A stretch of 64,000 nt of DNA. Origin: Stanieria sp. NIES-3757. GTDB taxonomy: Bacteria; Cyanobacteriota; Cyanobacteriia; Cyanobacteriales; Xenococcaceae. Shown piece after piece: positions 1 to 12,043 of the stretch. Within the stretch, counting starts at the first letter, position 1, and the number at the start of each line of letters is the position of its first letter. Under the pieces are notes generated by a model. The model worked only from the letters and a program-made list of their open reading frames with translations, made no database searches and was not told the DNA's origin. The stretch covers positions 868,001-932,000 of the forward strand of contig AP017375.1 in assembly GCA_002355455.1 (NCBI GenBank), given 5' to 3'. The position numbers were made by a program, and so were the translations under genes.

Positions 1-2187
1 TGGATGCACAGTACTTTCCCAATCTTCGTATCGTAGTGGTTTGCGATTGGGGTCAATGCCATATAAATTGTAATTTTCTTGTGACCAAATCAAAACCTCA
101 GCGTTTAAGTCCCAATCCCACAAACCAGCTTTGGCACTTGAGAGGGCAAACTTGAGTATTCTTTGATTTTCTTGTAGTTGTTTGTCTGCCAGTTTACGAG
201 CGGTAAGATCGCGAAAATAGACTGATAGAGCTTGTTTGGAAGGGTAGGCAGATATTTCCAGCCATTTTGCTAAAGAAGAATCATAATATTCAAATGTAGT
301 CGTAACTTGGTCATGGAAAGCTCGATGATATTCTGAATATAATTCGGTGTCGACCAGAGCAGGAAATTCTGACCAAATACTTTTGCCAATCAGTTCCTGT
401 TTTGATTTTTTAAGTTTTCGTGCTGCTTCCTGATTGATATAAGTAAAATTCCAATTGCGATCGAGAGCATAAAAAGCATCGGTCATACTTTCGAGAATCG
501 TGGTAATTAGTTGATTTGATTCTCGTAGAGCTTTTTCAGCTTGCTTGCGTTGGTTAATATTTTGTAGAGTCCCCATCATGCGTAGAGGCTGATCGTTACG
601 GTCGTAAAAACATTTTCCTTTCGCAACTAACCAATGCACACTGCCATCTGACCAAATAACCCGATACTCTATGTTGTAGTAAGTTTTTTGTTCGATACAC
701 TCTTTAACCGCTATGTCAGTGCGATCGCGGTCTTCTGGATGTAAGGCATTTAAAAATCTTTGGTAGGTGACTGAACTATCGGGAGCAAAGCCAAATAGAG
801 TTTTACAACGATTTGTCCATTCTAATTTGTCATTAACTAAATCCCAAAACCACATCCCCATCTCAGAGGCATCGGTAGCCAGACGTAAGCGTTCTTCACT
901 ATGGCGTAAATTAATTTCGATTTGTTTGCGTTCCGCTTCATGGTGCTTGCGATCGCTAATGTCTTGAGCAATACCTAAAATTTGATGTAGTCTGCCATCA
1001 GTAGTCCGACTCAAAACTCGATCTTGACTTGAAAACCAACGCCATTTTCCATCTCTGTGGCGCATTCGATATTGAAATTCACAAACTTGACCGCTCGCAG
1101 CTTGATTAAGCTCTTGTAAATGCAAGGGTAAACGGGCAAGATCTTCAGGGTGCATAATCCGAACTACAAAATTTTTTTCTTCTTGTAGTTCATGTTCAGG
1201 TGAATAACCTAGTAAAGGTAAAATTTGGGAATTAACGTAGAGATTTTTTTGTTTGAGGGTATCAACTAAATATATGATGCCAGGAATGGCTTCGGTAATT
1301 TGCTCTAATAACTGTTGGTGATGTTTTAATTCAATTAGAGTTTGTTGATGATAATTGCGTAATTTTGAATCTTGAATAGCTCGCTCGACAAACAAGTTTA
1401 ATTTATCTACAGTGATTTGATTTTTAACTAAATAATCAGTAACTCCTTGTTTGAGAAACTGTACTGCTATTCGTTCGTCTCCTTGTCCAGTCAAAACAAT
1501 TACGGGGGGACGAAGATTGTTGGTTTGTTGTTGCCATCGAAATAACCATTCCAACCCATCCATATCAGGCAAAAGATAATCGAGCAAAATCAAATCGGGT
1601 TGACACTGCTGATAGAGTTCTAATCCTTTTACTCCTGACTCAGCTTCATAAAAGCAATAGTTCCAAATTGAATTGGTTTGTAAGTAACGACGGTATAATA
1701 GTCGGTCTTCTTGGCAATCTTCGATCACTAAAACTGTTCGATGAAGTTTAGCTTGAGATGAAAGTGATGAAGTTTTTTTGAGACGATGCTGCTGAAGTTC
1801 CGACTGTTTTTGTTTGCTAATAACTGTAAAAGTTACAATTACTCCGTAGGGTTTAGTTTGATTTTCTGTAAATAAAGGCTGAGAGTTTAATAATAACCAG
1901 ATTAATTTTCCATTGGGTTTATAAAAACCCATCACTACGTCGGTGCAAGGTTGACCTGTTTTCAAAGTAACGATCGCAGGATGAGTTTCGGGTGAAAAAG
2001 CAGCACCATCTTCATGAATTGTCTGCCAAGGTGGTTCAAATGAAGAACTACCGACCAATTGTTTAGCTGTGTAACCCAAAATTTTCTCAGCATCAGCATT
2101 ACAAGCTTGAATACTCCCATCAGCACCATGAAGAACTATTCCTTTTTCTGCTGCTAGATTTAACTTCTGTGATAGTTGAGTATTCAT
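1..2187 (-). CDS. multi-PAS sensor protein with internal receiver domain (3' part missing)
   Basis: The reading frame opens at the ATG at 2187 and runs leftward off the window, giving about 729 residues with no stop. Translation shows a PAS domain (about residues 10-125), a receiver domain (about 150-275) with motifs VLVIEDCQEDR and LLDYLLPDMDG (phospho-acceptor Asp) and TDYLVKNQ (Lys), then at least four further PAS/PAC modules, each closing with a pattern such as QDISDRKH, QNINQRKQ or RDLTARKL. It therefore senses through several PAS pockets, and probably ends in a histidine kinase or GGDEF output beyond the window. A receiver placed between PAS domains is typical of cyanobacterial hybrid sensors. 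The next gene on the same strand (starting at 2904) is a single-domain response regulator, a plausible partner. The domain calls are firm; the output domain is unknown. Confidence 0.85.
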   Translation of the reverse strand, partial: MNTQLSQKLNLAAEKGIVLHGADGSIQACNADAEKILGYTAKQLVGSSSFEPPWQTIHEDGAAFSPETHPAIVTLKTGQPCTDVVMGFYKPNGKLIWLLLNSQPLFTENQTKPYGVIVTFTVISKQKQSELQQHRLKKTSSLSSQAKLHRTVLVIEDCQEDRLLYRRYLQTNSIWNYCFYEAESGVKGLELYQQCQPDLILLDYLLPDMDGLEWLFRWQQQTNNLRPPVIVLTGQGDERIAVQFLKQGVTDYLVKNQITVDKLNLFVERAIQDSKLRNYHQQTLIELKHHQQLLEQITEAIPGIIYLVDTLKQKNLYVNSQILPLLGYSPEHELQEEKNFVVRIMHPEDLARLPLHLQELNQAASGQVCEFQYRMRHRDGKWRWFSSQDRVLSRTTDGRLHQILGIAQDISDRKHHEAERKQIEINLRHSEERLRLATDASEMGMWFWDLVNDKLEWTNRCKTLFGFAPDSSVTYQRFLNALHPEDRDRTDIAVKECIEQKTYYNIEYRVIWSDGSVHWLVAKGKCFYDRNDQPLRMMGTLQNINQRKQAEKALRESNQLITTILESMTDAFYALDRNWNFTYINQEAARKLKKSKQELIGKSIWSEFPALVDTELYSEYHRAFHDQVTTTFEYYDSSLAKWLEISAYPSKQALSVYFRDLTARKLADKQLQENQRILKFALSSAKAGLWDWDLNAEVLIWSQENYNLYGIDPNRKPLRYEDWESTVHP

Positions 2188-2463: not shown

Positions 2464-2904
2464 TTATGCGGTTTTTTGGCAATTGTTCTGATTCTGTTGC
2501 ACTACTTTAGCGATCAATGCAGCTAAATGATCGAGTAGAAAAGGCTTAGAAAGGTAAGCATCAAACCCTGCTGATAAGATTTTCTCGCGGTCTTTGGTTT
2601 TTGCAGCAGCAGTTATTGCGATCGCGGCTAAATGTCTATTTGAGCTTCTTTCTATATTTTTTAACTGATTAATCAACCAAAAACCATTTTCTTCGGGCAT
2701 AAAAATGTCACTAAGAATAATTTCAGGTTGAAAAAATTGTACTTCTTCGAGTGCTACTTTAGCACTAGCAACTGATTTAACTTTTGCTCCAATTTGCTCT
2801 AGATAAAACAACAACAAGTCCCTCGAATCTTTGTCATCATCAACTATCAATACTCGTAATTTACTAATCTGGTCTTCCGCTTGCTTACTTCTTGTTGTCA
2901 TCAT
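2464..2904 (-). CDS. single-domain response regulator (CheY-like)
   Basis: A 146-residue protein made of one receiver domain. The acidic pocket is VLIVDDDKDSR (Asp22-24), the phospho-acceptor is Asp66 in ILSDIFMPEENG, the Thr/Ser switch position is in IAITAAAK, and the conserved Lys is in YLSKPF. No DNA-binding or enzymatic output follows, so it should act by phosphorylation-dependent protein contact. The start could be either Met1 or Met2. It lies on the same strand as, and upstream of, the multi-PAS sensor at 1-2187, which suggests a phosphorelay pair, although the 276-bp gap argues against tight co-transcription. Confidence 0.85.
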   Translation of the reverse strand: MMTTRSKQAEDQISKLRVLIVDDDKDSRDLLLFYLEQIGAKVKSVASAKVALEEVQFFQPEIILSDIFMPEENGFWLINQLKNIERSSNRHLAAIAITAAAKTKDREKILSAGFDAYLSKPFLLDHLAALIAKVVQQNQNNCQKTA

Positions 2905-3252: not shown

Positions 3253-6051
3253 ATGACTAATAATGCTGGTTTACTCCTTAAACCATCGTCAAAACAAGAT
3301 TTCGCCAGTCAACTCAAGTTTGCTGCCATTATTACCAGTATTCTTGTGATTTGTTTGGGTTGTGCTTCTGTTTTGGGGTGGATGTTCGAGCTAACTATTT
3401 TTAAAAGCATCTTTCCTCAACAAATGACTATGAAAGTAAGTACTGCTCTAGGTTTTATCTTAGGAGGAATTTTGCTTTTACTGTGGCATCAACAACAGAG
3501 CCATTCTCGGAAAAATCATCCTTTAATTCTATTTTTGTGGCAGTATTTATTACCAAGTTTTATCCTTCTGTTCAGTCTGCTAACTTTGGGTGAATATGGC
3601 TTCAATGTAGATTTGGGAACAGATTGGCTTGCATTCCCAGATCTAGACGATCCTAGTTATCCAATCACTAGAGGAAGGATGACTCCCTATACAGCCTTGA
3701 ACTTTTTATTGTTTAATTTTGCTTTTTTACTTTTAATTCAAAAATACTATTCTACTGCTCAATTACTGATTATTTTTGTAATAGCGATCGCGACTGTTAA
3801 TCTAATTGGTCATACCTATAATATTACCATTTTTTACGAAGTCGTTTCTGGGACAGAAATGGCAATTCAGACTGCCCTTAGTTTTATTTTACTAGCTTTT
3901 GCTTTTTTAGCTAGTTGTCCCGAACGAGGTTGGCTCAAAGAGATCGCGACACAAGAAGCTGGCGGGTTAATGGCTCGTTGGTTATTCCCGATTTTAATGT
4001 TCATTCCACCTTTATCAGGTTGGTTTTTTTGGTGGTGGTTACGAGGCAATTGGGAAAACGTTAGGCTAATTATTGCCCTAAGAATTTTATTGGAGATGGT
4101 AATTTTTGGGGTAATTGTTTGGTGGACTGCCAAAAAATTAAATGAATTAGACCGCCAACAACAACAGTTTTCTCAAGCCTTATTAGATACTGAAAAACGA
4201 TTTCGCGCTATTTTTAATCAAACTTTTCAATTTATTGGCTTACTTGCTCCCGATGGTACACTTTTGGAAGCCAATCAGACTAGCTTAGATTTTGGTGGCA
4301 TTAGTCTGTCAGAAGTAGTTGGCAAGCCTTTTTGGCAAACCTATTGGTGGCAAATTTCTGAACAAACTCAATTAGATTTGCAAACAGCGATCGCGCGAGC
4401 CAGACAAGGAGAATTTGTTCGTTACGAAGTAGATCTTCTTGGTGCCAACAGACAAATCATTACCATCGATTTTTCTCTCCGTCCAGTGATCGATGAAACA
4501 GGCGCAGTAATTTTATTAATTCCCGAGGGAAGAGATATCAGCGAACGTAAACAGGCTGAAAAAGCCTTGCAAAAAAGCGAACTAAGATATCGAGCGATCG
4601 TGGAAGATCAAACGGAATTGATCTGTCGTTACTTACCAGATTCAACCATCTTGTTTGTCAATGATGCCTACTGTCGTTATTTTGGTTTAGATAAACATAC
4701 TTTAATTAATCAAAAATATACTCCGGTAATTTATGAAGCAGATCGTCAGCGAATAACTCAACAAGTTGAGTCCCTGAACCCAGATCATCCTAGCACCATG
4801 ATTGAAAATCGGGTTTGGGCAAAAGGAAAGGTACGCTGGACGCAGTGGAATAACAGGATGATTTTCGATCAACAGGGGAAATTTTTAGAATATCAATCAG
4901 TAGGACGAGATATTACGGCACTAAAAGAGGTTGAAGAAAATTTAAGAGAAACGGAAGAACTCTTTCGTCAACTAGCAGAAAATATCAAAGATATCTTTTT
5001 TCTCTACTCTGCGAATGGAAAATTAATTTATGTTAGTCCAGCCTATGAAAAAATTCTGCATCTGTCTTGTAGTAGTTTATACGAACATCCTGAATCGTGG
5101 CTAGCAATGGTTCATCCGAACGATCGCCCGATTGTCCAACAAGCTTTGGCTCAATTAAACCAAGGCGATCAAACGTACGAATACCGAGTTATCGCTCTAA
5201 ATAGTCAAATTCGCTGGATCAGAACCAGAACTTTTGTGATTCGAGATGAGTCTGGCAACATCTATCGCATCGCTGGTATTGGTGAAGATGTAACTAAACA
5301 AAAGCAAGCAGAAGAAAAATTTAATGCTTTGATTCAAGAATTAAAACGTAGTAATGAAGCTTTAGAAGAATTTGCCTCTATAGTTTCTCACGATTTACTT
5401 TCGCCTTTGCACAAACAGCAAATGTTGAGAGAATTACTTGTAGATGAGTACGGTGAGATTTTAGACGAACAAGCTCAAGAATATTTAGACCGGATGGCAC
5501 AGCTAAATCAAAAAATGCAAAATCTGGTTCGAGGTTTACTGGCTTTTGCTCGTGTCACTACTCAAGCACAACCATTTGCACCAGTCGATCTCAATGCGGT
5601 AGTTCGAGAAGTGATAGAAGAATTTGAAGCAGAAATTGCTCAAGTCAACGCACAAATTGAAGTAGGAGAATTACCGACTGTTCAAGGCGATCGCTTGCAA
5701 CTGGAGCAACTATTTCAAAATCTGCTCGAAAATGCGCTTAAGTTTCGTGCTGTAGATCGACAACCAACAATTAAAATTTATCAGTTATTTAATACTCAAA
5801 CAGAATCAGAACCCGGCGAGGCTTGTACGCCCCGTCAAATTGTGATAGAAGACAATGGCATTGGTTTTGAACCTGAAGAAAGTGAGAAAATTTTTGCTCC
5901 TTTTCATCGTTTACATAGTTCTAGTAAATACAAAGGTACGGGTTTAGGTTTAGCAATTTGTCGTAAAATAATCGAACGTCATCAAGGCACAATTATTGCT
6001 CAAAGTCAGCCTCAACAAGGAGCAAGTTTTATGATTGGTTTGCCCTGCTAA
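3253..6051 (+). CDS. membrane-bound PAS-domain sensor histidine kinase
   Basis: A 932-residue protein. Residues about 20-290 hold seven or eight hydrophobic membrane segments (for example FAAIITSILVICLGCASVLG and LLIIFVIAIATVNLIG), forming an integral membrane sensory domain of unknown ligand. Three PAS/PAC modules follow (about 310-435, 440-560, 565-690), ending with motifs such as EGRDISERKQAE and VGRDITALKE. The kinase core has a HisKA-type dimerisation domain with phospho-acceptor His713 in SIVSHDLLSPL, and an ATPase domain with N box (QNLLENALKF), G1 (EDNGIGF) and G2 (GTGLGLAI). The family autophosphorylates on His and passes phosphate to a receiver. The kai operon with its true-receiver KaiA-like protein begins 374 bp downstream, so cross-talk is possible but unproven. 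Confidence 0.9.
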   Translation: MTNNAGLLLKPSSKQDFASQLKFAAIITSILVICLGCASVLGWMFELTIFKSIFPQQMTMKVSTALGFILGGILLLLWHQQQSHSRKNHPLILFLWQYLLPSFILLFSLLTLGEYGFNVDLGTDWLAFPDLDDPSYPITRGRMTPYTALNFLLFNFAFLLLIQKYYSTAQLLIIFVIAIATVNLIGHTYNITIFYEVVSGTEMAIQTALSFILLAFAFLASCPERGWLKEIATQEAGGLMARWLFPILMFIPPLSGWFFWWWLRGNWENVRLIIALRILLEMVIFGVIVWWTAKKLNELDRQQQQFSQALLDTEKRFRAIFNQTFQFIGLLAPDGTLLEANQTSLDFGGISLSEVVGKPFWQTYWWQISEQTQLDLQTAIARARQGEFVRYEVDLLGANRQIITIDFSLRPVIDETGAVILLIPEGRDISERKQAEKALQKSELRYRAIVEDQTELICRYLPDSTILFVNDAYCRYFGLDKHTLINQKYTPVIYEADRQRITQQVESLNPDHPSTMIENRVWAKGKVRWTQWNNRMIFDQQGKFLEYQSVGRDITALKEVEENLRETEELFRQLAENIKDIFFLYSANGKLIYVSPAYEKILHLSCSSLYEHPESWLAMVHPNDRPIVQQALAQLNQGDQTYEYRVIALNSQIRWIRTRTFVIRDESGNIYRIAGIGEDVTKQKQAEEKFNALIQELKRSNEALEEFASIVSHDLLSPLHKQQMLRELLVDEYGEILDEQAQEYLDRMAQLNQKMQNLVRGLLAFARVTTQAQPFAPVDLNAVVREVIEEFEAEIAQVNAQIEVGELPTVQGDRLQLEQLFQNLLENALKFRAVDRQPTIKIYQLFNTQTESEPGEACTPRQIVIEDNGIGFEPEESEKIFAPFHRLHSSSKYKGTGLGLAICRKIIERHQGTIIAQSQPQQGASFMIGLPC

Positions 6052-6424
6052 AATTTTATTTATTATAAATATTAATTTAAAAATAAACTAAGATGACTCA
6101 AACCTAAATTATTAATTGCTTTTGCTCAATAATAATAGTTTTGTTGCGTTTTGTATTTCTGAAAAAAATAAAATTTTCCAATTGTGCTGGTTTAGAAAAA
6201 AGATTTTGAGCAGTTATCTATAATTAGTTAGAGTCAAATATTTTTACACAACTATACAATAAAATTATTGTGGTGTTTCACTTATGAGAAAGTTTTGAAA
6301 TTTTCTCCGTTATTATTGCTGTAATACCATTTTCAAATAGTAGGGTTGTTGGTTATCTAGAATTAAATTTGCCTACATTCTGTTTAAAGCTCTTTTAGTA
6401 AACACTTTCATTTATAGTTTTCTT
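6052..6424. other. AT-rich intergenic region upstream of the kai operon
   Basis: A 373-bp, very AT-rich stretch with no coding signal in either strand. It should contain the promoter of the kaiA3-kaiB3-kaiC3-kinase operon. No clear Shine-Dalgarno sequence is seen before the ATG at 6425, and I could not define -10/-35 boxes with confidence. Confidence 0.4.
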
Positions 6425-7321
6425 ATGTTAAATCATCCCTGTCGAGTTTTATTAGTAGAAGATGAACCAGAAGATCTGAAAAAATTACAAACAATTTTGA
6501 CTAATGCTCATTCTGCATCTTTTCGACGTGGATTTAATTTAACTTGGGCGGAAACTGTAGCTCAAGGTAAACAACTAATTGCTCAAACAGAATTTGATGT
6601 TGTAATCCTCGATTTAATGCTACCAGATAGTCGTGGGCTAAATACTCTGAGAGAAATACAATCAATTATTTCTAAAATACCAATTATTGTTTTAACTTCA
6701 ATAGAAGATGAAATTGTTGCCGTTAAAGTTTTAGAATTAGGGGCTTGTGGTTATTTACCCAAAAATGTTTTGGAGCAAAATTTATTAATTTATGCAATTC
6801 GCACGGCGATCGAGCGTAAACTCCAATTAGCTAAATTTGAAGAGTGGCAAAAACAACAACCAGCCCAAGAAATAGCTTTACTGGAAAATTTTTTAGCAGA
6901 TAAAACTATTAATGAGCAATTAGCAGATTCAGAATCTTTGCAGCAAAAAATGCCCGATATAGTAGCAGAAATCAAAGAACGCTACCACGATTTACTCGAT
7001 CGCTTTGTCGAACAAAGAATTTATAAAGTTCAATACGAAATCAACCGAAATATCGAGGTTTTAGTTGAACAACTAGGATATCTTCAAGCCACACCCAGAG
7101 ATTTAATTGAGATACACACCACAATTTTAAAACAAAAACAAGCAACTCTTGGGCAAAGACAAGCAATGACTTATACGATAGAAGGTCGCTATTTACTATT
7201 AGAAATGATGGGTAAATTAGCAGCTTACTATCGGAAATATTACATGGGATTAAATAAAATTAATCTGGTTCAAAACTATAGTAACGAAATTTTAAAAAAT
7301 AACCAAAGATCGAATAATTAA
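6425..7321 (+). CDS. kaiA3: KaiA3-like clock protein: receiver domain fused to KaiA domain
   Basis: A 298-residue protein. Residues 6-135 form a true receiver domain: acidic pair Glu12/Asp13 (LLVEDEPED), phospho-acceptor Asp63 (VVILDLMLPDS), VLTSIED and the Lys of YLPKN. Residues about 165-285 match the helical C-terminal KaiA domain (KERYHDLLDRFVEQR, ATPRDLIEIHTTILKQK, TYTIEGRYLLLEMMGKLA), the part of KaiA that binds KaiC and dimerises. Canonical KaiA has a pseudo-receiver instead. The arrangement matches KaiA3, the NarL-type-receiver/KaiA fusion reported for the second clock of Synechocystis. It is followed 24 bp later by kaiB and then kaiC. The likely role is to stimulate KaiC3 phosphorylation, possibly gated by Asp63 phosphorylation. 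The assignment to the KaiA3 clade rests on architecture and context. Confidence 0.85.
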   Translation: MLNHPCRVLLVEDEPEDLKKLQTILTNAHSASFRRGFNLTWAETVAQGKQLIAQTEFDVVILDLMLPDSRGLNTLREIQSIISKIPIIVLTSIEDEIVAVKVLELGACGYLPKNVLEQNLLIYAIRTAIERKLQLAKFEEWQKQQPAQEIALLENFLADKTINEQLADSESLQQKMPDIVAEIKERYHDLLDRFVEQRIYKVQYEINRNIEVLVEQLGYLQATPRDLIEIHTTILKQKQATLGQRQAMTYTIEGRYLLLEMMGKLAAYYRKYYMGLNKINLVQNYSNEILKNNQRSNN

Positions 7322-7345
7322 TTTTTTTATTTAATAAATTTTAAA

Positions 7346-7648
7346 ATGTTTTTAATGTGTAAAAGATACTTACTAAAATTATATGTCAGCGGAGATACGG
7401 CTCGAACTCGGAAAGCGATCGCTAATTTACAAGAGTTTTGTCAGCAAGAATTACCTGAACAAACTAAAATTGAAATTATCGATATTTTAAAAAATCCTCC
7501 TGTAGCAGAAGAAAAAAAAATTTTAATTACGCCTACTCTAGTCAAAGAATTTCCTTTGCCTCAAGAGCGAATTATTGGCGATCTTTCTAATAGAGAGGTC
7601 GTTGCTTTTGCTCTTAATATTCAATTAAAATACCCTCAATCTAATTAA
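7346..7648 (+). CDS. kaiB3: KaiB-family clock protein (KaiB3-like)
   Basis: A 100-residue protein of full KaiB length. It shows the thioredoxin-like KaiB fold signatures: KRYLLKLYVSGDTARTRKAI at the N-terminus, the EIIDILKNPPVAEEKKILITPTL core, and RIIGDLSNREVVA. KaiB switches fold to bind the CI ring of KaiC and to sequester KaiA during the clock cycle. It sits 24 bp after the KaiA-like gene and 48 bp before kaiC, on the same strand, so co-transcription is expected. KaiB3 rather than KaiB1 is inferred from the neighbouring receiver-KaiA fusion. The ATG at 7346 is used; the next in-frame ATG lies 9 bp downstream and is equally possible. Confidence 0.88.
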   Translation: MFLMCKRYLLKLYVSGDTARTRKAIANLQEFCQQELPEQTKIEIIDILKNPPVAEEKKILITPTLVKEFPLPQERIIGDLSNREVVAFALNIQLKYPQSN

Positions 7649-7696
7649 TGCTTTAAAAGTAATCAATTATTATCAATTCACAATTGAGAGCGAGGC

Positions 7697-9214
7697 ATGA
7701 ACCAATCAAGGGAACAGGATGTATTAGCCAAAATTGAAACGGGAATTTCTGGTTTTGATGTTTTTTCGGAAGGGGGATTGCCACAAGGAAGAACAACTTT
7801 AGTCACGGGAACTGCTGGTAGTGGTAAAACGATTTTTGCTTGTCAATTTTTAATTGAAGGTATTAAAAGAGGTCAAAACGGAGTTTTTGTTACCTTTGAA
7901 GAATCGCCGAAAATGTTGCGTAAAAATATGCGCGGGTTGGGTTTGGACATTCAAACCTGGGAGCAAAAAGGTAAGTGGAGTTTTGTCGATGCTTCTCCCC
8001 AAGAGCGTAGTCTTCCATTAGTAAGTGGTGAATACGATCTAGATCCTTTAATCACTCGCTTAGTCTATGCCATTGAGCGAGTTAATGCCCAGAGAGTAGC
8101 AATGGATTCTTTGGGAGCAATTTTTAGCTATGTCCCGAATATTGGTCAAGTTCGGGGTGTAATGTTTAAATTGGCTCAAATACTTCGAGAGATGGAAATT
8201 ACTGCCGTATTAACCTCAGAACGTACGGCTGAATACGGGGAAATCAGTCGCTATAGTATTGAAGAATTTGTGGCGGATAACGTCATTATTCTCCGCAATT
8301 CCTTAGTTGAAGAAAAGCGTCGTCGCACTATTGAAATTCTCAAGTTTCGAGGTGTTTCGCACCAAAATGGCGAGTTTCCTTTTACTATCATTTCAGATCG
8401 AGGAATTGTGGTTCTTTCCTTTTCCACAGATGTATCAAAACACAAATCTTCCCGAAAACGGCTCACTTCAGGTAATCGAGAACTTGATGCTATGTGTGGA
8501 GGTGGATGGTTTGAGGGTTCAATGAGTTTGGTATCGGGTGCGACTGGTACAGGTAAGACTCTGATGGTGACAGAATTTATCGACGGGGGTATAAAAAACG
8601 GCGAAAAATGTTTGTTATTTGCTTTTGAAGAAAGTCGAGAACAACTTTTAAATAATGTGTTGGGTTGGGGTGTGGACTTTGAGCAAATGGAAAGAGAAAA
8701 CCAACTCAAAATTGTCTGTTATTATCCAGAAATTACTGGACTTGAATCTCATTTTGTTCAAATGAGAACCCAGATTGAAAAGTTTCAACCTCAAAGAATA
8801 GCCATCGATAGTATTTCTGCACTAGAAAGAGTTTCAACCCTCAAAGGTTTTCGCGAATTTTTGCTAATGTTAAATACAATGCTGAAAGAAAAAGGAATTA
8901 CTACTCTATGTACAGCCAATACTGTGAACTTAATCGGTAGTCCGTCAATTACAGAATCAAGCATTTCTCCTAATACAGATTTGATCGTGTTATTGCGCTA
9001 CGTTGAAGTTTATGGAGAGATTAGGCGAGGACTAACAGTGTTAAAAATGCGTGGTTCTAAACATGATAAAGATATTCGTGAGTTTTCGATTGATGAACGA
9101 GGAATGCATTTAGGAAAACCTTTCCGCAATATTACAGGCATCCTGGTAGGAAATCCAAGTTTAGTAAATACTGATGAATTAGACCGCCTCAACAACTTAT
9201 TTAAAGAAACGTAA
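7697..9214 (+). CDS. kaiC3: KaiC-family clock ATPase/kinase (KaiC3-like)
   Basis: A 505-residue protein with two RecA-like halves. CI has Walker A GTAGSGKT (residues 38-45) and the catalytic EE of FVTFEESP. CII has Walker A GATGTGKT (281-288) and the EE of FAFEESRE. KaiC hexamers hydrolyse ATP and autophosphorylate to keep circadian time. In the phosphorylation loop the residue matching Ser431 of S. elongatus KaiC is present (Ser424), and Thr426 is matched by Thr419, but the Thr432 position is Pro425 (ESSISPNTD). Dual-site phosphorylation in its usual form is therefore not possible at that pair. The C-terminal tail is short, ending NNLFKET. A GAGCGAGG stretch just before the ATG can serve as ribosome binding site. 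The gene lies between kaiB3 and a histidine kinase, all co-oriented. Confidence 0.93.
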   Translation: MNQSREQDVLAKIETGISGFDVFSEGGLPQGRTTLVTGTAGSGKTIFACQFLIEGIKRGQNGVFVTFEESPKMLRKNMRGLGLDIQTWEQKGKWSFVDASPQERSLPLVSGEYDLDPLITRLVYAIERVNAQRVAMDSLGAIFSYVPNIGQVRGVMFKLAQILREMEITAVLTSERTAEYGEISRYSIEEFVADNVIILRNSLVEEKRRRTIEILKFRGVSHQNGEFPFTIISDRGIVVLSFSTDVSKHKSSRKRLTSGNRELDAMCGGGWFEGSMSLVSGATGTGKTLMVTEFIDGGIKNGEKCLLFAFEESREQLLNNVLGWGVDFEQMERENQLKIVCYYPEITGLESHFVQMRTQIEKFQPQRIAIDSISALERVSTLKGFREFLLMLNTMLKEKGITTLCTANTVNLIGSPSITESSISPNTDLIVLLRYVEVYGEIRRGLTVLKMRGSKHDKDIREFSIDERGMHLGKPFRNITGILVGNPSLVNTDELDRLNNLFKET

Positions 9215-9238
9215 TAATTTGATGAGGGATTAATAAAA

Positions 9239-10726
9239 ATGAAATCACCAAAATCGGCTTTTGAGAAAATCAAACTTTTAATTGTCCAAGATTGTTACTC
9301 CGCAGCAGCAACTGTATCTTTACTAATTGAGGCTGGATTTGAACTCAATTGGCAACAAGTAAGCACTGAAGCTGATTATCTTGCCCATCTAAATGCTAAT
9401 CTCGATTTGATTTTGGTTGATGATTATCAGACTCAATTAACCACTACAGAAGCATTAAAATTATGGATAAAACACAAATTAACCATACCTGTCTTAATCA
9501 TCAATGGGGAAGCCAACATTTCCAAAGCAGTAACAGCAATTAAAGCAGGAGCTAGTAATTATTTAACTACCGCAGAAATGGAGCGATTGCCTCTAGTAGT
9601 CGAGCAAGTCTTACAAGAGCAATTTAATTTTTGTGTTCAATTACGAAGATGTATTCACGAAAGTGAGCAACAATTACAAAAGCTAATTACTGAAAATCCT
9701 GATGGCATTATCGTAGTTGATGAACAAGGAGTTGTTCAATTTGTTAATCCCGCAGCTCTAAAACTTTTACAAAAATCAACTACTCAACTGCTTGGTGAGT
9801 CTCTTGGTTTTCCTGTAGTTAATGGAGACTATTTAGAAGTAGATATTCCTCAAAGTCAAGGACAAATTGTAATTGCTCAAATGCGTGTGAGTCAAATTTT
9901 CTGGCAGGGGATGACTGCTTATCTTGTTTCTCTACGAGATATTACCAAACTCAAACAAGCAGAGGAAGAAAGAGTCAAACTGTTGGAAGAAACTCAAGCA
10001 GCTAATCGAGCCAAAGACGAATTTTTAGCAGTTTTGTCTCATGAACTGCGAACTCCTTTAAATCCCATTGTAGGATGGTCACAGCTTATTAGTGGTGGAA
10101 CTCTCAATCAAACTCAAATTCAGCAAGGGATAGAAATTATTCAGCGCAACGCTATGTTGCAAGCTCAATTAATTGAAGACATTTTAGAGCTTTCTCGCAT
10201 CATTCGTGGCAAGCTGCAATTGGAAGTATCGAAGGTAGATTTGAGCAAAATTGTCGATAATGCACTTGGAAATTTGCATCTGGCAGCCCAAGCTAAATCT
10301 ATTGAAATTATTACTCATTGTGATCGCAATGTTGGTCTAGTTTACGGTGATGCTACTCGTCTACAACAAATAATTTGGAATTTATTATCCAATGCAGTTA
10401 AATTTACTCCCGATCGCGGTAGGGTAGAAGTAACTCTCAAGAAGAGCGATCGCACTGTTCAACTTCAAGTTAAAGATAACGGCAAGGGCATTGAACCAGA
10501 ATTCCTTTCTCACGTGTTTGATTATTTTTGTCAGGCAGAAAATGTTACCAGCCGAGCTTTTGGGGGATTAGGATTAGGACTCGCGATTGTTCGTCACCTA
10601 GTTGAACTCCACGGAGGTAGCGTAACCGCTCACAGTGATGGAATTGGGCAAGGTGCAACTTTTATTATTTCTCTTCCGACAAATAATAGTTTTGATGACT
10701 CAAGTTCAGAGGAAAGTTTGTCTTAA
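9239..10726 (+). CDS. histidine kinase with degenerate receiver and PAS domain, in the kai operon
   Basis: A 495-residue protein that starts 24 bp after kaiC3 with a GAGGG ribosome binding site. Residues about 8-125 have the receiver fold, with LLIVQDC in place of the usual acidic pair and YLTTAEM in place of the conserved Lys. The Asp of LILVDDY is kept, so it is probably a pseudo-receiver or weakly active. A PAS domain follows (about 140-240, ending SLRDITKLKQAEE), then HisKA with His268 in VLSHELRTPLNP, and a HATPase with N box (WNLLSNAVKFTP), G1 (KDNGKGIE) and G2 (GLGLGLAI). Its place in the kai operon suggests an input or output kinase of the KaiABC3 clock, analogous in role to SasA or CikA but with a different architecture. 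That role is inference; the domain calls are firm. Confidence 0.9.
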   Translation: MKSPKSAFEKIKLLIVQDCYSAAATVSLLIEAGFELNWQQVSTEADYLAHLNANLDLILVDDYQTQLTTTEALKLWIKHKLTIPVLIINGEANISKAVTAIKAGASNYLTTAEMERLPLVVEQVLQEQFNFCVQLRRCIHESEQQLQKLITENPDGIIVVDEQGVVQFVNPAALKLLQKSTTQLLGESLGFPVVNGDYLEVDIPQSQGQIVIAQMRVSQIFWQGMTAYLVSLRDITKLKQAEEERVKLLEETQAANRAKDEFLAVLSHELRTPLNPIVGWSQLISGGTLNQTQIQQGIEIIQRNAMLQAQLIEDILELSRIIRGKLQLEVSKVDLSKIVDNALGNLHLAAQAKSIEIITHCDRNVGLVYGDATRLQQIIWNLLSNAVKFTPDRGRVEVTLKKSDRTVQLQVKDNGKGIEPEFLSHVFDYFCQAENVTSRAFGGLGLGLAIVRHLVELHGGSVTAHSDGIGQGATFIISLPTNNSFDDSSSEESLS

Positions 10727-10755
10727 TCTTTGCTCGTGAGAGAGAATCAAAAAAA

Positions 10756-10780
10756 GTAATAGGTAATAGATAATAGGTAA
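10756..10780. repeat. heptamer tandem repeat (GTAATAG type)
   Basis: About three and a half copies of a 7-bp unit (GTAATAG, GTAATAG, ATAATAG, GTAA) lie in the short gap between the convergent kai-operon kinase and the HtrA gene. This fits the short tandem heptamer repeats common between cyanobacterial genes. Confidence 0.5.
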
Positions 10781-10819
10781 AAACTGACTTCTGACTCCTG
10801 AATTCTCATTGATTGAGTA

Positions 10820-12043
10820 TTATCCTGGGAAAGCGGGATTGAGCGGTAAAGATTGAGGAATAACGCTTACTGGCATTTTTTTTCCTTCTCTATCTAGATC
10901 TAATTGCATTTTCTGACCAATTCCGTTGCGGTTTAGTAATTGTTGCAGCATCTCAGGCTTAGTAATAGATTGACCATCAATTCCTACAATGACATCTCCG
11001 ACGTGGAGTCCTGCTGCTGATGCGGGAGAATCAGGTTGGACTGTGACAATGAGAAGTCCACGATCTTGACTGACTTGTTGTTTACGATTGGGGATTTGAT
11101 TTAATCTTTTTTTGATTTCTGGAGTTAAGGCAACCATTTCAATTCCAATATAAGGATGTTCTACTTTTCCATTAGCAATCAATTGTCGAGCAATATTTTG
11201 AGCCGTATTGATCGGAATCGCAAAACCCAGTCCTTGAGTTCCACCAATAATTGCCGTATTTACGCCAATCACTTCTCCTTGGACATTGAGTAAAGGACCT
11301 CCAGAATTACCTGGATTGATTGCTGCATCAGTTTGCAGAAAACCAATTCGTTTATCTGCAATGCCAATATCACGACTGAAACGATGAGTAGCACTGATCA
11401 CACCAACTGTAACGGTTTCTTGTAAACCCAAAGGATTCCCAATTGCGATCGCCCATTGTCCTTGTTCAACGCGATCGCTATCTCCAATTCTTACGGCAGG
11501 TAAATTCTGTGCCTGTACCTTAACTACAGCTATATCGGTAACAGGATCTTTTCCTAACACTTCACCATCTAAAAGACGACCATCTTGAAACGAAACTGTC
11601 ACTTCATCAGCTTGGTTAACTACATGAGCGTTAGTTAAAATTAGACCGTTAGGATCGATGACAAAACCAGAACCCAGTCCGCGTAAAGTTGGTTGAGAAG
11701 GCAAGTTTCCTGGTTGTCTGCCAAACAGAGGCGGTAAAAAGACACCATCTAAAGCACGAGAAACATTAACTTGAACTACAGCAGGTTCAACTGCTTTACT
11801 GACGGTAGTTACAAAATTAGTTGGTTGGGTTGGAGATGGAATTGAATTTTGATCGAGAATAATTTCTGGTGTGACTTCTTTAATTGATTCCAATTGTTTT
11901 GATGATGGTGATTCGGCTCTTGCTGTTGGGGCATTAAGAATAACTAAACCCAGACTAATAGTTATAGTTAATAAATAAATAGTTAAATAACGATGCCAGT
12001 CATTGAGATAGGCGATCAAGTTTTTTGGCGCAATTCTCATCAA
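10820..12043 (-). CDS. HtrA/Deg-family serine protease
   Basis: A 407-residue periplasmic or lumenal protease. The N-terminus has a hydrophobic export segment (YLLTITISLGLVILNAPTA) followed by an ARAES-type cleavage site. The trypsin-like domain carries the full triad: His in LTNAHVV, Asp in DPVTDIAVVKV and Ser in NPGNSGGPLL. One PDZ domain follows (about 300-395, LIVTVQPDSPASAAGLHVGDVIVGIDG split over two motifs). Cyanobacteria usually carry three paralogues, HtrA, HhoA and HhoB, which degrade or refold damaged envelope and thylakoid proteins. With a single PDZ all three remain possible, so no specific gene symbol is given. It is convergent with the kai operon and preceded by an AT-rich promoter region. 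Confidence 0.92.
   Translation of the reverse strand: MMRIAPKNLIAYLNDWHRYLTIYLLTITISLGLVILNAPTARAESPSSKQLESIKEVTPEIILDQNSIPSPTQPTNFVTTVSKAVEPAVVQVNVSRALDGVFLPPLFGRQPGNLPSQPTLRGLGSGFVIDPNGLILTNAHVVNQADEVTVSFQDGRLLDGEVLGKDPVTDIAVVKVQAQNLPAVRIGDSDRVEQGQWAIAIGNPLGLQETVTVGVISATHRFSRDIGIADKRIGFLQTDAAINPGNSGGPLLNVQGEVIGVNTAIIGGTQGLGFAIPINTAQNIARQLIANGKVEHPYIGIEMVALTPEIKKRLNQIPNRKQQVSQDRGLLIVTVQPDSPASAAGLHVGDVIVGIDGQSITKPEMLQQLLNRNGIGQKMQLDLDREGKKMPVSVIPQSLPLNPAFPG

Follow-up and report, generated by a model that had tools for sequence, protein, structure and literature searches.

Which histidine kinase speaks to the clock protein KaiA3 is the question raised by a locus of the cyanobacterium Stanieria sp. 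NIES-3757. In 64,000 nucleotides of its genome (assembly GCA_002355455.1, contig AP017375.1, positions 868,001 to 932,000; the window), the genes kaiA3, kaiB3 and kaiC3 lie between two histidine kinase genes, here called HKup (upstream) and HK (downstream). According to the available text of Kobler et al. (2024), a cognate histidine kinase for KaiA3 'has not yet been identified' (PMC11372060), and the accessible part of a July 2026 review describes one as possible and unidentified (PMC13421787). No report linking a kinase to a kaiA3-kaiB3-kaiC3 locus was found in the open-access literature, bioRxiv and most subscription journals being outside the scope of the search. Several related bacteria also have two kinases flanking kaiA3-kaiB3-kaiC3.

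We propose, with confidence about evenly balanced, a kinase-wired KaiA3-KaiB3-KaiC3 branch in which HKup would supply the input, KaiC3 would act as timer or switch and HK would read the outcome. The proposal builds on gene content, order and conservation, clade membership, loss patterns and residues; each phosphotransfer, binding and timing step in it is put forward conditionally.

Two kinases flank the kaiA3-kaiB3-kaiC3 genes

The module consists of the following features (window positions).

3253..6051, plus strand: HKup, a 932-amino-acid kinase with PAS domains, HisKA and HATPase, proposed input kinase of KaiA3 (Pfam and reciprocal best match)
6425..7321, plus strand: kaiA3, a receiver-KaiA fusion of 298 amino acids (open reading frame, Pfam, tree, profile comparison, predicted structure)
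6611..6613, plus strand: codon of Asp63, phospho-acceptor of the KaiA3 receiver (receiver alignment)
6923..7258, plus strand: predicted KaiA-like C-terminal domain, residues 167-278 of KaiA3 (profile and structure comparison)
7346..7648, plus strand: kaiB3, 100 amino acids (open reading frame, Pfam)
7697..9214, plus strand: kaiC3, 505 amino acids with two KaiC domains (open reading frame, Pfam, trees)
8966..8971, plus strand: codons TCT CCT of Ser424-Pro425, where other KaiC3 have their Ser-Thr phosphosites
9239..10726, plus strand: HK, a 495-amino-acid kinase with a receiver-like N-terminus, PAS, HisKA and HATPase, proposed reader of KaiB/KaiC
9239..9613, plus strand: receiver-like N-terminal domain of HK (alignment by eye, receiver matches)
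10040..10042, plus strand: codon of His268 in the motif SHELRTP, expected phosphorylated histidine of HK (invariant in the alignment)

The five genes share one strand and are separated by 373, 24, 48 and 24 bp, and the frames of kaiA3, kaiB3, kaiC3 and HK are open throughout. Open reading frames, Pfam and the receiver alignment thus bear out the original prediction of four genes in one run, with the three short gaps and Asp63 as acceptor. A pattern scan of positions 5900-10900 gave 11 promoter-like sites (17.1 expected) and six terminator-like sites (3.1 expected); it placed none of the latter in the gaps between module genes and one near the end of kaiB3.

The sister genome, G086, has the same gene order at 80-93% protein identity (G-codes denote surveyed genomes, the window genome being G000, and L-codes fetched loci). 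Ratios of nonsynonymous to synonymous substitution rates (dN/dS) against this genome were 0.15 for HKup, 0.13 for kaiA3, 0.18 for kaiB3, 0.12 for kaiC3 and 0.25 for HK, as compared with 0.04, 0.03 and 0.22 for the canonical KaiC1, KaiB1 and KaiA1. All five module genes are under purifying selection, and the system is kept.

Identity of the Kai proteins

We built trees for KaiA and KaiC, with near-duplicates, fragments and some other rows excluded. KaiA3 begins with a receiver (Pfam, 70 bits at residues 8-121) whose active site is intact (E12, D13, D63, T91 and K113). Its C-terminal half had no Pfam match. By hhalign this half aligned with 12 canonical KaiA C-termini at an E-value of 7.5e-4 over 93 columns, at a probability of only 25%, and a control with the receiver-like domain of HK gave an E-value of 0.32. 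There was no hhalign match to full-length KaiA1, and a profile search of the PDB returned nothing at E 0.1. A structure predicted from the single sequence was dropped (predicted local distance difference test, pLDDT, 43), and a model from three sequences was used instead (pLDDT 70.4; block means 80-92 over residues 171-270). In a structure comparison of this model (VIA), KaiA entries filled all of the top eight places among 50 listed (Z 10.3-11.2, next 8.8), two of the eight being whole-chain fits with a root-mean-square deviation of 17. Foldseek gave no match at E 0.001 and ranked receiver proteins such as PorX first; the KaiA C-terminus 1v2z stood in row 20 (E 0.038, prob 1.00). Because helical bundles can reach such Z scores by chance, the profile and structure lines are taken as mutually supporting, neither standing alone, and in combination they support the prediction that the C-terminal half is a KaiA-like four-helix domain.

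In the KaiA tree (42 of 67 KaiA3 sequences), the window protein grouped with those of G086, G254, G244, G196, Calothrix and Rivularia MS3 (7 rows, support 99), and its gene lies upstream of kaiB3. KaiB scored 78.7 bits in Pfam (cut-off 27) and stayed under both KaiB equivalog cut-offs of NCBIfam (84.3 of 110 and 78.5 of 145.3). KaiC3 scored 390.9 bits with Pfam KaiC; in NCBIfam it reached 641.5 bits with PRK09302 (cut-off 408) and, with circ_KaiC, 534.4, slightly under 546.25. It grouped with KaiC proteins whose genes adjoin kaiA3-kaiB3, separately from KaiC1 and KaiC2, in a set of 28 rows (Shimodaira-Hasegawa-like approximate likelihood ratio test, SH-aLRT, 98) and of 33 rows in a second tree (98); the class names come from gene order and similarity, the trees holding no named Synechocystis sequence. 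The outgroup was formed by four KaiC2-like copies, with no Rhodobacter sequence among them, and the window KaiC did not fall into a KaiC2 clade. From the A3/B3/C3 identity given in the original prediction, the trees, which cover KaiA and KaiC, place KaiA in the A3 group and KaiC in the C3 group. Elsewhere, the same genome encodes a kaiC2-like copy (277 bits) and a canonical kaiC (825 bits), the latter closely preceded by canonical kaiA and kaiB.

Distribution of the downstream kinase

A survey of 388 genomes of the order turned up full-length KaiA3 in 65, counting the window genome itself (E < 1e-44), and the loci of the other 64 were fetched. HK follows kaiC3 at four of these 65 loci: the window, G086 (80% identity), G244 (52%) and G196, where it is cut by the contig end. 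The G196 kinase (end of L038) finishes in VSYTHLTLP at that point, which we take to be an adapter artefact. In G254, the fifth of the close relatives, kaiC3 is broken and the contig ends. At four other loci a different kinase follows kaiB3 (G117, G184, G146 and G083). BLAST against the window kinases and the sequence starts revealed no directly following kinase at the remaining KaiA3 loci, with the contigs of G254, G223 and G344 ending too soon to show one. We therefore rejected this kinase as a general feature of kaiC3 loci: the kinase that the original prediction placed in the kai cluster is real, it is conserved at related loci, and the Kai proteins did not fall outside their expected groups, but four of 65 loci do not make a rule. 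A HisKA-HATPase kinase other than HK stands directly after kaiB3, with kaiC3 missing, in L059, L064, L076 and L080 (weak GAF match in L059, the one scanned); this is a second, separate kinase association.

With HK as query, eight carriers were taken from the same 388 genomes (G000, G086, G019, G162, G244, G196, G258 and G305), those of G258 and G305 being accepted from longer alignments and that of G196 from pieces on two contigs. At the level of the class (388 genomes), the search singled out G000 and G019 alone (1e-117 or better; next 2e-37). A contig scan with two peptide patterns returned seven named relatives (Myxosarcina, Calothrix, Coleofasciculus, Richelia, Plectonema and two Rivularia) and one chance hit, and 18 of 217 genomes of the family of G305 carried HK (E 1e-40; 17 loci fetched).

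The order HKup-kaiA3-kaiB-kaiC-HK was present in the window, G086, Calothrix parasitica NIES-267, Rivularia MS3 and G846, and is common to two families (f1 and f33). G244 has kaiA3-kaiB-kaiC-HK with no HKup beside it. Thirteen loci carry kaiB-kaiC-HK without kaiA3 (G019, G162, Plectonema, Rivularia T60 (G305) and nine more, L240-L248), and two loci of one genus (L249 and L250) carry kaiB-HK with no kaiC nearby. A PAS hybrid kinase of 1029 or 1162 amino acids occupies the place of kaiA3 in G019 and G162. No full-length KaiA3 was found elsewhere in the genomes of G162, G258, Myxosarcina (G716), Rivularia T60 (G717) and Plectonema (G718). HK stands alone, without kaiB-kaiC beside it, in Richelia SL_2_1, and in G759 (L251) an HKup-like kinase overlaps a broken HK with no kai gene.

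The 20 KaiC proteins with HK beside them form one clade inside KaiC3 (SH-aLRT 100), spanning the family of the window to Calothrix and Rivularia. Since 16 of the 20 were found through the kinase, the purity of this clade is partly by choice; when loci were found through KaiA3, those with the kinase beside them fell into the clade in 4 of 4 testable cases, window included. We considered it very improbable that these genes are plain neighbours, with signalling genes clustering and the kinases unlinked to the clock. More receiver and kinase genes do lie left of the module, and the genome is rich in kinases (112 matches to the Calothrix upstream kinase), but five genes keep the same order in two families and their KaiC fall into one clade. 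Judged by gene order and phylogeny, the position of HK beside kai genes is no accident.

HK as a putative reader of KaiB and KaiC

Pfam recognized PAS, HisKA and HATPase in HK, and a weak receiver match at its N-terminus (22.5 bits, cut-off 30.2). By eye, 9 of 10 aligned sequences keep the Asp position of this domain, and nine of the ten, the window sequence among them, lack the active-site Lys, which Rivularia MS3 retains. A C-terminal receiver is present in 5 of 7 aligned HK; those of the window and G244 lack it, and in a DNA alignment with G086 the corresponding stretch is missing in the window.

HK was retained after loss of kaiA3 in three separate KaiC branches (G019/G162; G305/Plectonema; L240-L248). 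Its retention without kaiA3, and beside kaiB with no kaiC near, suggests a tie to KaiB/KaiC and not to KaiA3. The original prediction had HK as the cognate kinase of KaiA3, phosphorylating Asp63. The 24-bp gap and conserved adjacency favour this, the KaiA3 receiver is intact, and the absence of a C-terminal receiver of its own would free the HK of the window and of G244 for another one. However, HK was kept in 13 loci without kaiA3 and in two beside kaiB alone, most aligned HK carry their own receiver, and HKup, which tracks kaiA3, fits the role better. We regard this role for HK as unlikely.

SasA and CikA, in the core cyanobacterial clock, are kinases that read Kai complexes; SasA is defined by a KaiB-like N-terminal domain before the kinase, and CikA by GAF and a C-terminal pseudo-receiver. 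In Pfam, the N-terminus of HK had no KaiB-like match at E 0.001, with receiver-like matches instead; there was no GAF domain and nothing after HATPase, PAS being present. HK further differs from both in being encoded within the kai cluster, and its receiver-like domain is N-terminal, not C-terminal as in CikA. By the features tested, HK is a member of neither. By analogy it may act like SasA or CikA, perhaps as an output.

HKup as the candidate kinase of KaiA3

Of the 112 matches in the window genome to the kinase upstream of kaiA3 in Calothrix, HKup scored highest (292 bits, next 198). Conversely, the kinase part of HKup found its best match beside kaiA3 in Calothrix (280 versus 209 bits) and in Rivularia MS3 (273 versus 233 bits). 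About 300 N-terminal residues of HKup have no Pfam match and appear by eye to hold membrane segments; a Pfam scan found no PHY domain. Of six testable loci with kaiA3, five have HKup next to it, as against one of 17 loci that lack kaiA3 (Fisher 0.001; relatedness uncorrected, 9 of the 17 being close relatives; G196, G254 and G258 set aside for contig ends).

The company of related kinases points the same way. We examined 20 of the 112 matches, ranked by the Calothrix kinase, with PAS-only matches, HK and one other excluded. Five of the top seven kinases have a separate receiver downstream, against one of the 13 that follow in rank, seven of these 13 being hybrids as judged by frame. When ranking used the kinase part of HKup itself, a separate receiver was found in 4 of the 6 closest, and one of the earlier five fell far down. 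The three nearest relatives of the KaiA3 receiver among 42 other receivers of the genome (72.7, 68.1 and 67.0 bits; next 49.9) lie 953, 491 and 552 bp downstream of kinases ranked 4, 1 and 3 of 83 by similarity to HKup. Random ranks would give this pairing with a chance of 9e-5, a value that loses weight as support, the test having been devised after the pattern was seen and the three operons probably being copies of one. These sister operons consist of a kinase, an Rcp1-like receiver and then a receiver-kinase or receiver-GGDEF protein, and one of the kinases is a phytochrome (PHY, 210 bits); this order recurs in G086, Calothrix and Rivularia MS3. Such phytochrome-type operons of the window genome hold close relatives of HKup and of the KaiA3 receiver; the kai locus differs from them in having no Rcp1-like gene, in the fusion of its receiver to a KaiA domain and in a kinase, HKup, that lacks PHY. 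On orthology, co-occurrence with kaiA3, kinase type and receiver kinship, HKup is a better candidate than HK to phosphorylate KaiA3.

The state of the KaiA3 receiver was also compared across loci. The seven KaiA3 checked in the kinase branch all have an intact E-D-D-T-K set, and the four KaiA3 encoded next to the other kinase likewise have an intact site. An intact receiver occurred in 10 of 10 sequences with an adjacent kinase and in 9 of 54 without (Fisher 6e-7; 64 of 67 sequences readable). Once relatedness was taken into account the association no longer looked strong, which counts against our proposal: the tree offers only two independent pairs, and within these the two traits either change in the same direction or are alike. 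Receiver intactness tracking an adjacent kinase is a hint only. The acceptor position is Asp in 44 of 66 readable KaiA3 sequences; the available text of Kobler et al. gives it as conserved except in Pleurocapsa and Microcystis (PMC11372060).

KaiC3 phosphosites

The window KaiC3 has Ser424-Pro425 at the positions of S. elongatus 431/432, at which two-site oscillators of the KaiC1/KaiC3 type carry Ser-Thr, Ser-Ser or Ser-Tyr, whereas G086 has Ser-Thr; the Pro425 codon rests on one assembly. A Thr equivalent to T426 is present. KaiC3 at kinase-free loci had Ser-Thr in 33 of 33 readable cases. In the kinase-linked clade the pair is Ser-Thr in 15 of 20, the window having Pro and L242, L243, L247 and L248 having Ile at the second position, and the KaiC tree places two separate losses of the Thr432 position within this clade. 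With its second phosphosite missing, a canonical two-site cycle is doubtful in the window strain. The 'complete' oscillator module of the original prediction is therefore in doubt on this point, while its genes are all present, together with an upstream kinase, HKup, that it had omitted. A one-phosphosite device, such as a damped timer or a switch, appears more likely than a free-running two-site oscillator.

Decay of the window system is a further explanation for the loss of the KaiC3 phosphosite and the HK receiver. It would account for Ser-Pro in KaiC3, for HK without its C-terminal receiver and for the broken kaiC3 of G254. Against it stand the open frames and the dN/dS ratios of kaiC3, kaiA3 and HK (0.12, 0.13 and 0.25), averages in which a recent loss could hide. 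We judge decay improbable.

Alternatively, HKup and HK could be parts of a single phosphorelay from which KaiA3 branches off, the Kai proteins tuning a two-kinase sensor and not keeping time. Both kinases are adjacent in G759 with no kai genes, HK stays in Richelia SL_2_1 without kaiB-kaiC beside it, and the twofold loss of the Thr432 position would agree. Yet G759 and Richelia are single cases, the G759 kinase is broken, HK has at least kaiB as a neighbour at 21 of the 23 loci on which HKup and kaiA3 were scored, and kaiC3 is under purifying selection. This relay seems to us rather unlikely, slightly more so than HK acting on KaiA3.

Comparison with known systems

The comparisons that follow draw on the available portions of the papers cited. 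Like the window, Synechocystis PCC 6803 encodes a KaiA with a fused receiver ahead of kaiB3, kaiC3 usually coming next, and the receiver keeps the acceptor Asp; its KaiC3 is phosphorylated on Ser423 and Thr424, where the window has Ser-Pro, and the window has two linked kinases where a cognate one for Synechocystis is yet to be named (PMC11372060). Tyr is the second site in some KaiC3 (PMC4794148, PMC5520375). The operons of Rhodopseudomonas palustris and Rhodobacter sphaeroides, like the window, combine a PAS histidine kinase with kaiB and kaiC (PMC4794148, PMC5520375), and many relatives of the window system lack kaiA3, as do the kaiC-kaiB-PAS/HK operons of purple bacteria. The Rhodobacter genes are filed as KaiC2/KaiB2 in the discussion of Kobler et al. 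(PMC11372060), whereas the window has KaiA3 and a KaiC of the KaiC3 group.

The 'Nt_HK' kinases of a 2011 Ramlibacter paper, compared by description, resemble HK in lying directly after kaiC and in their receiver-like N-terminus; they were proposed as SasA-like partners of KaiC, and their loci, unlike the window, lack kaiB (PMC3164672). The same paper gives kinase neighbours of kaiC as common, with cyanobacteria as the stated exception (PMC3164672).

Neighbouring genes

Two further features lie left of the module.

2464..2904, minus strand: stand-alone receiver of 146 amino acids, a possible partner only
1-2187, minus strand: start of a 1179-amino-acid PAS/receiver/kinase/receiver protein that runs off the window

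The stand-alone receiver is 50% identical to a receiver beside HK in G244, and the HK of both strains lack the C-terminal receiver. The idea that it is the lost receiver of HK was rejected, since with the HK receiver of G086 as query it came no higher than ninth. Parts of the 1179-amino-acid protein are 45-53% similar to the Myxosarcina kinase that replaces kaiA3.

In other genomes, a large divergent open reading frame stands beside canonical kaiA in 10 of 12 cases, some kinase-like by eye (L176, L177, L178, L180-L183, L185, L186 and L188). A protein of 635-660 amino acids lies two genes upstream of kaiA3 in L051, L056, L060, L065 and L079, that of L051 being PAS-GGDEF-EAL.

A proposed kinase-wired Kai branch

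In the scheme that we propose, HKup, a PAS-domain kinase related to phytochrome kinases, would sense a signal and phosphorylate Asp63 of the KaiA3 receiver. Phosphorylation would alter the degree to which the KaiA-like half stimulates KaiC3, and KaiB3 with KaiC3 would convert the KaiA3 input into a slow state. HK would read the state of KaiB/KaiC, probably via its receiver-like N-terminal domain, and relay it as phosphate, in most aligned relatives via its own C-terminal receiver, which is missing in the window HK.

Several observations weigh against this scheme. HKup may be a separate transcript, given the 373 bp before kaiA3. In the sister operons the Rcp1-like receiver comes first and the KaiA3-like one second, so that their kinases may serve the Rcp1-like one. 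In G244, kaiA3 has no HKup as a neighbour, and the closest HKup-like kinase of that genome (224 bits) lies on another contig; Rivularia T60, without kaiA3, has an HKup-like kinase of 217 bits elsewhere. The adjacency of HKup and a broken HK in G759, with no kai gene between, suggests that the kinases may serve each other. Since the active-site Lys persists in one relative of HK, the N-terminal domain cannot be called a pseudo-receiver in every case, and binding of HK to KaiB or KaiC is a guess.

A more specific version, which we hold only tentatively, has KaiA3 arising by fusion of a receiver from a phytochrome-type operon with a KaiA domain; a light or redox relay would in this way drive a KaiC timer directly, HKup would be the cognate kinase, HK would dock on KaiB/KaiC, and several members would run with one phosphosite and without KaiA3.

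For the input of the KaiA3 clock the locus offers one candidate kinase, and for its output a second, separate candidate. The natural losses of KaiA3, KaiC and the second phosphosite within one clade mean that the purpose of each clock part can be asked.

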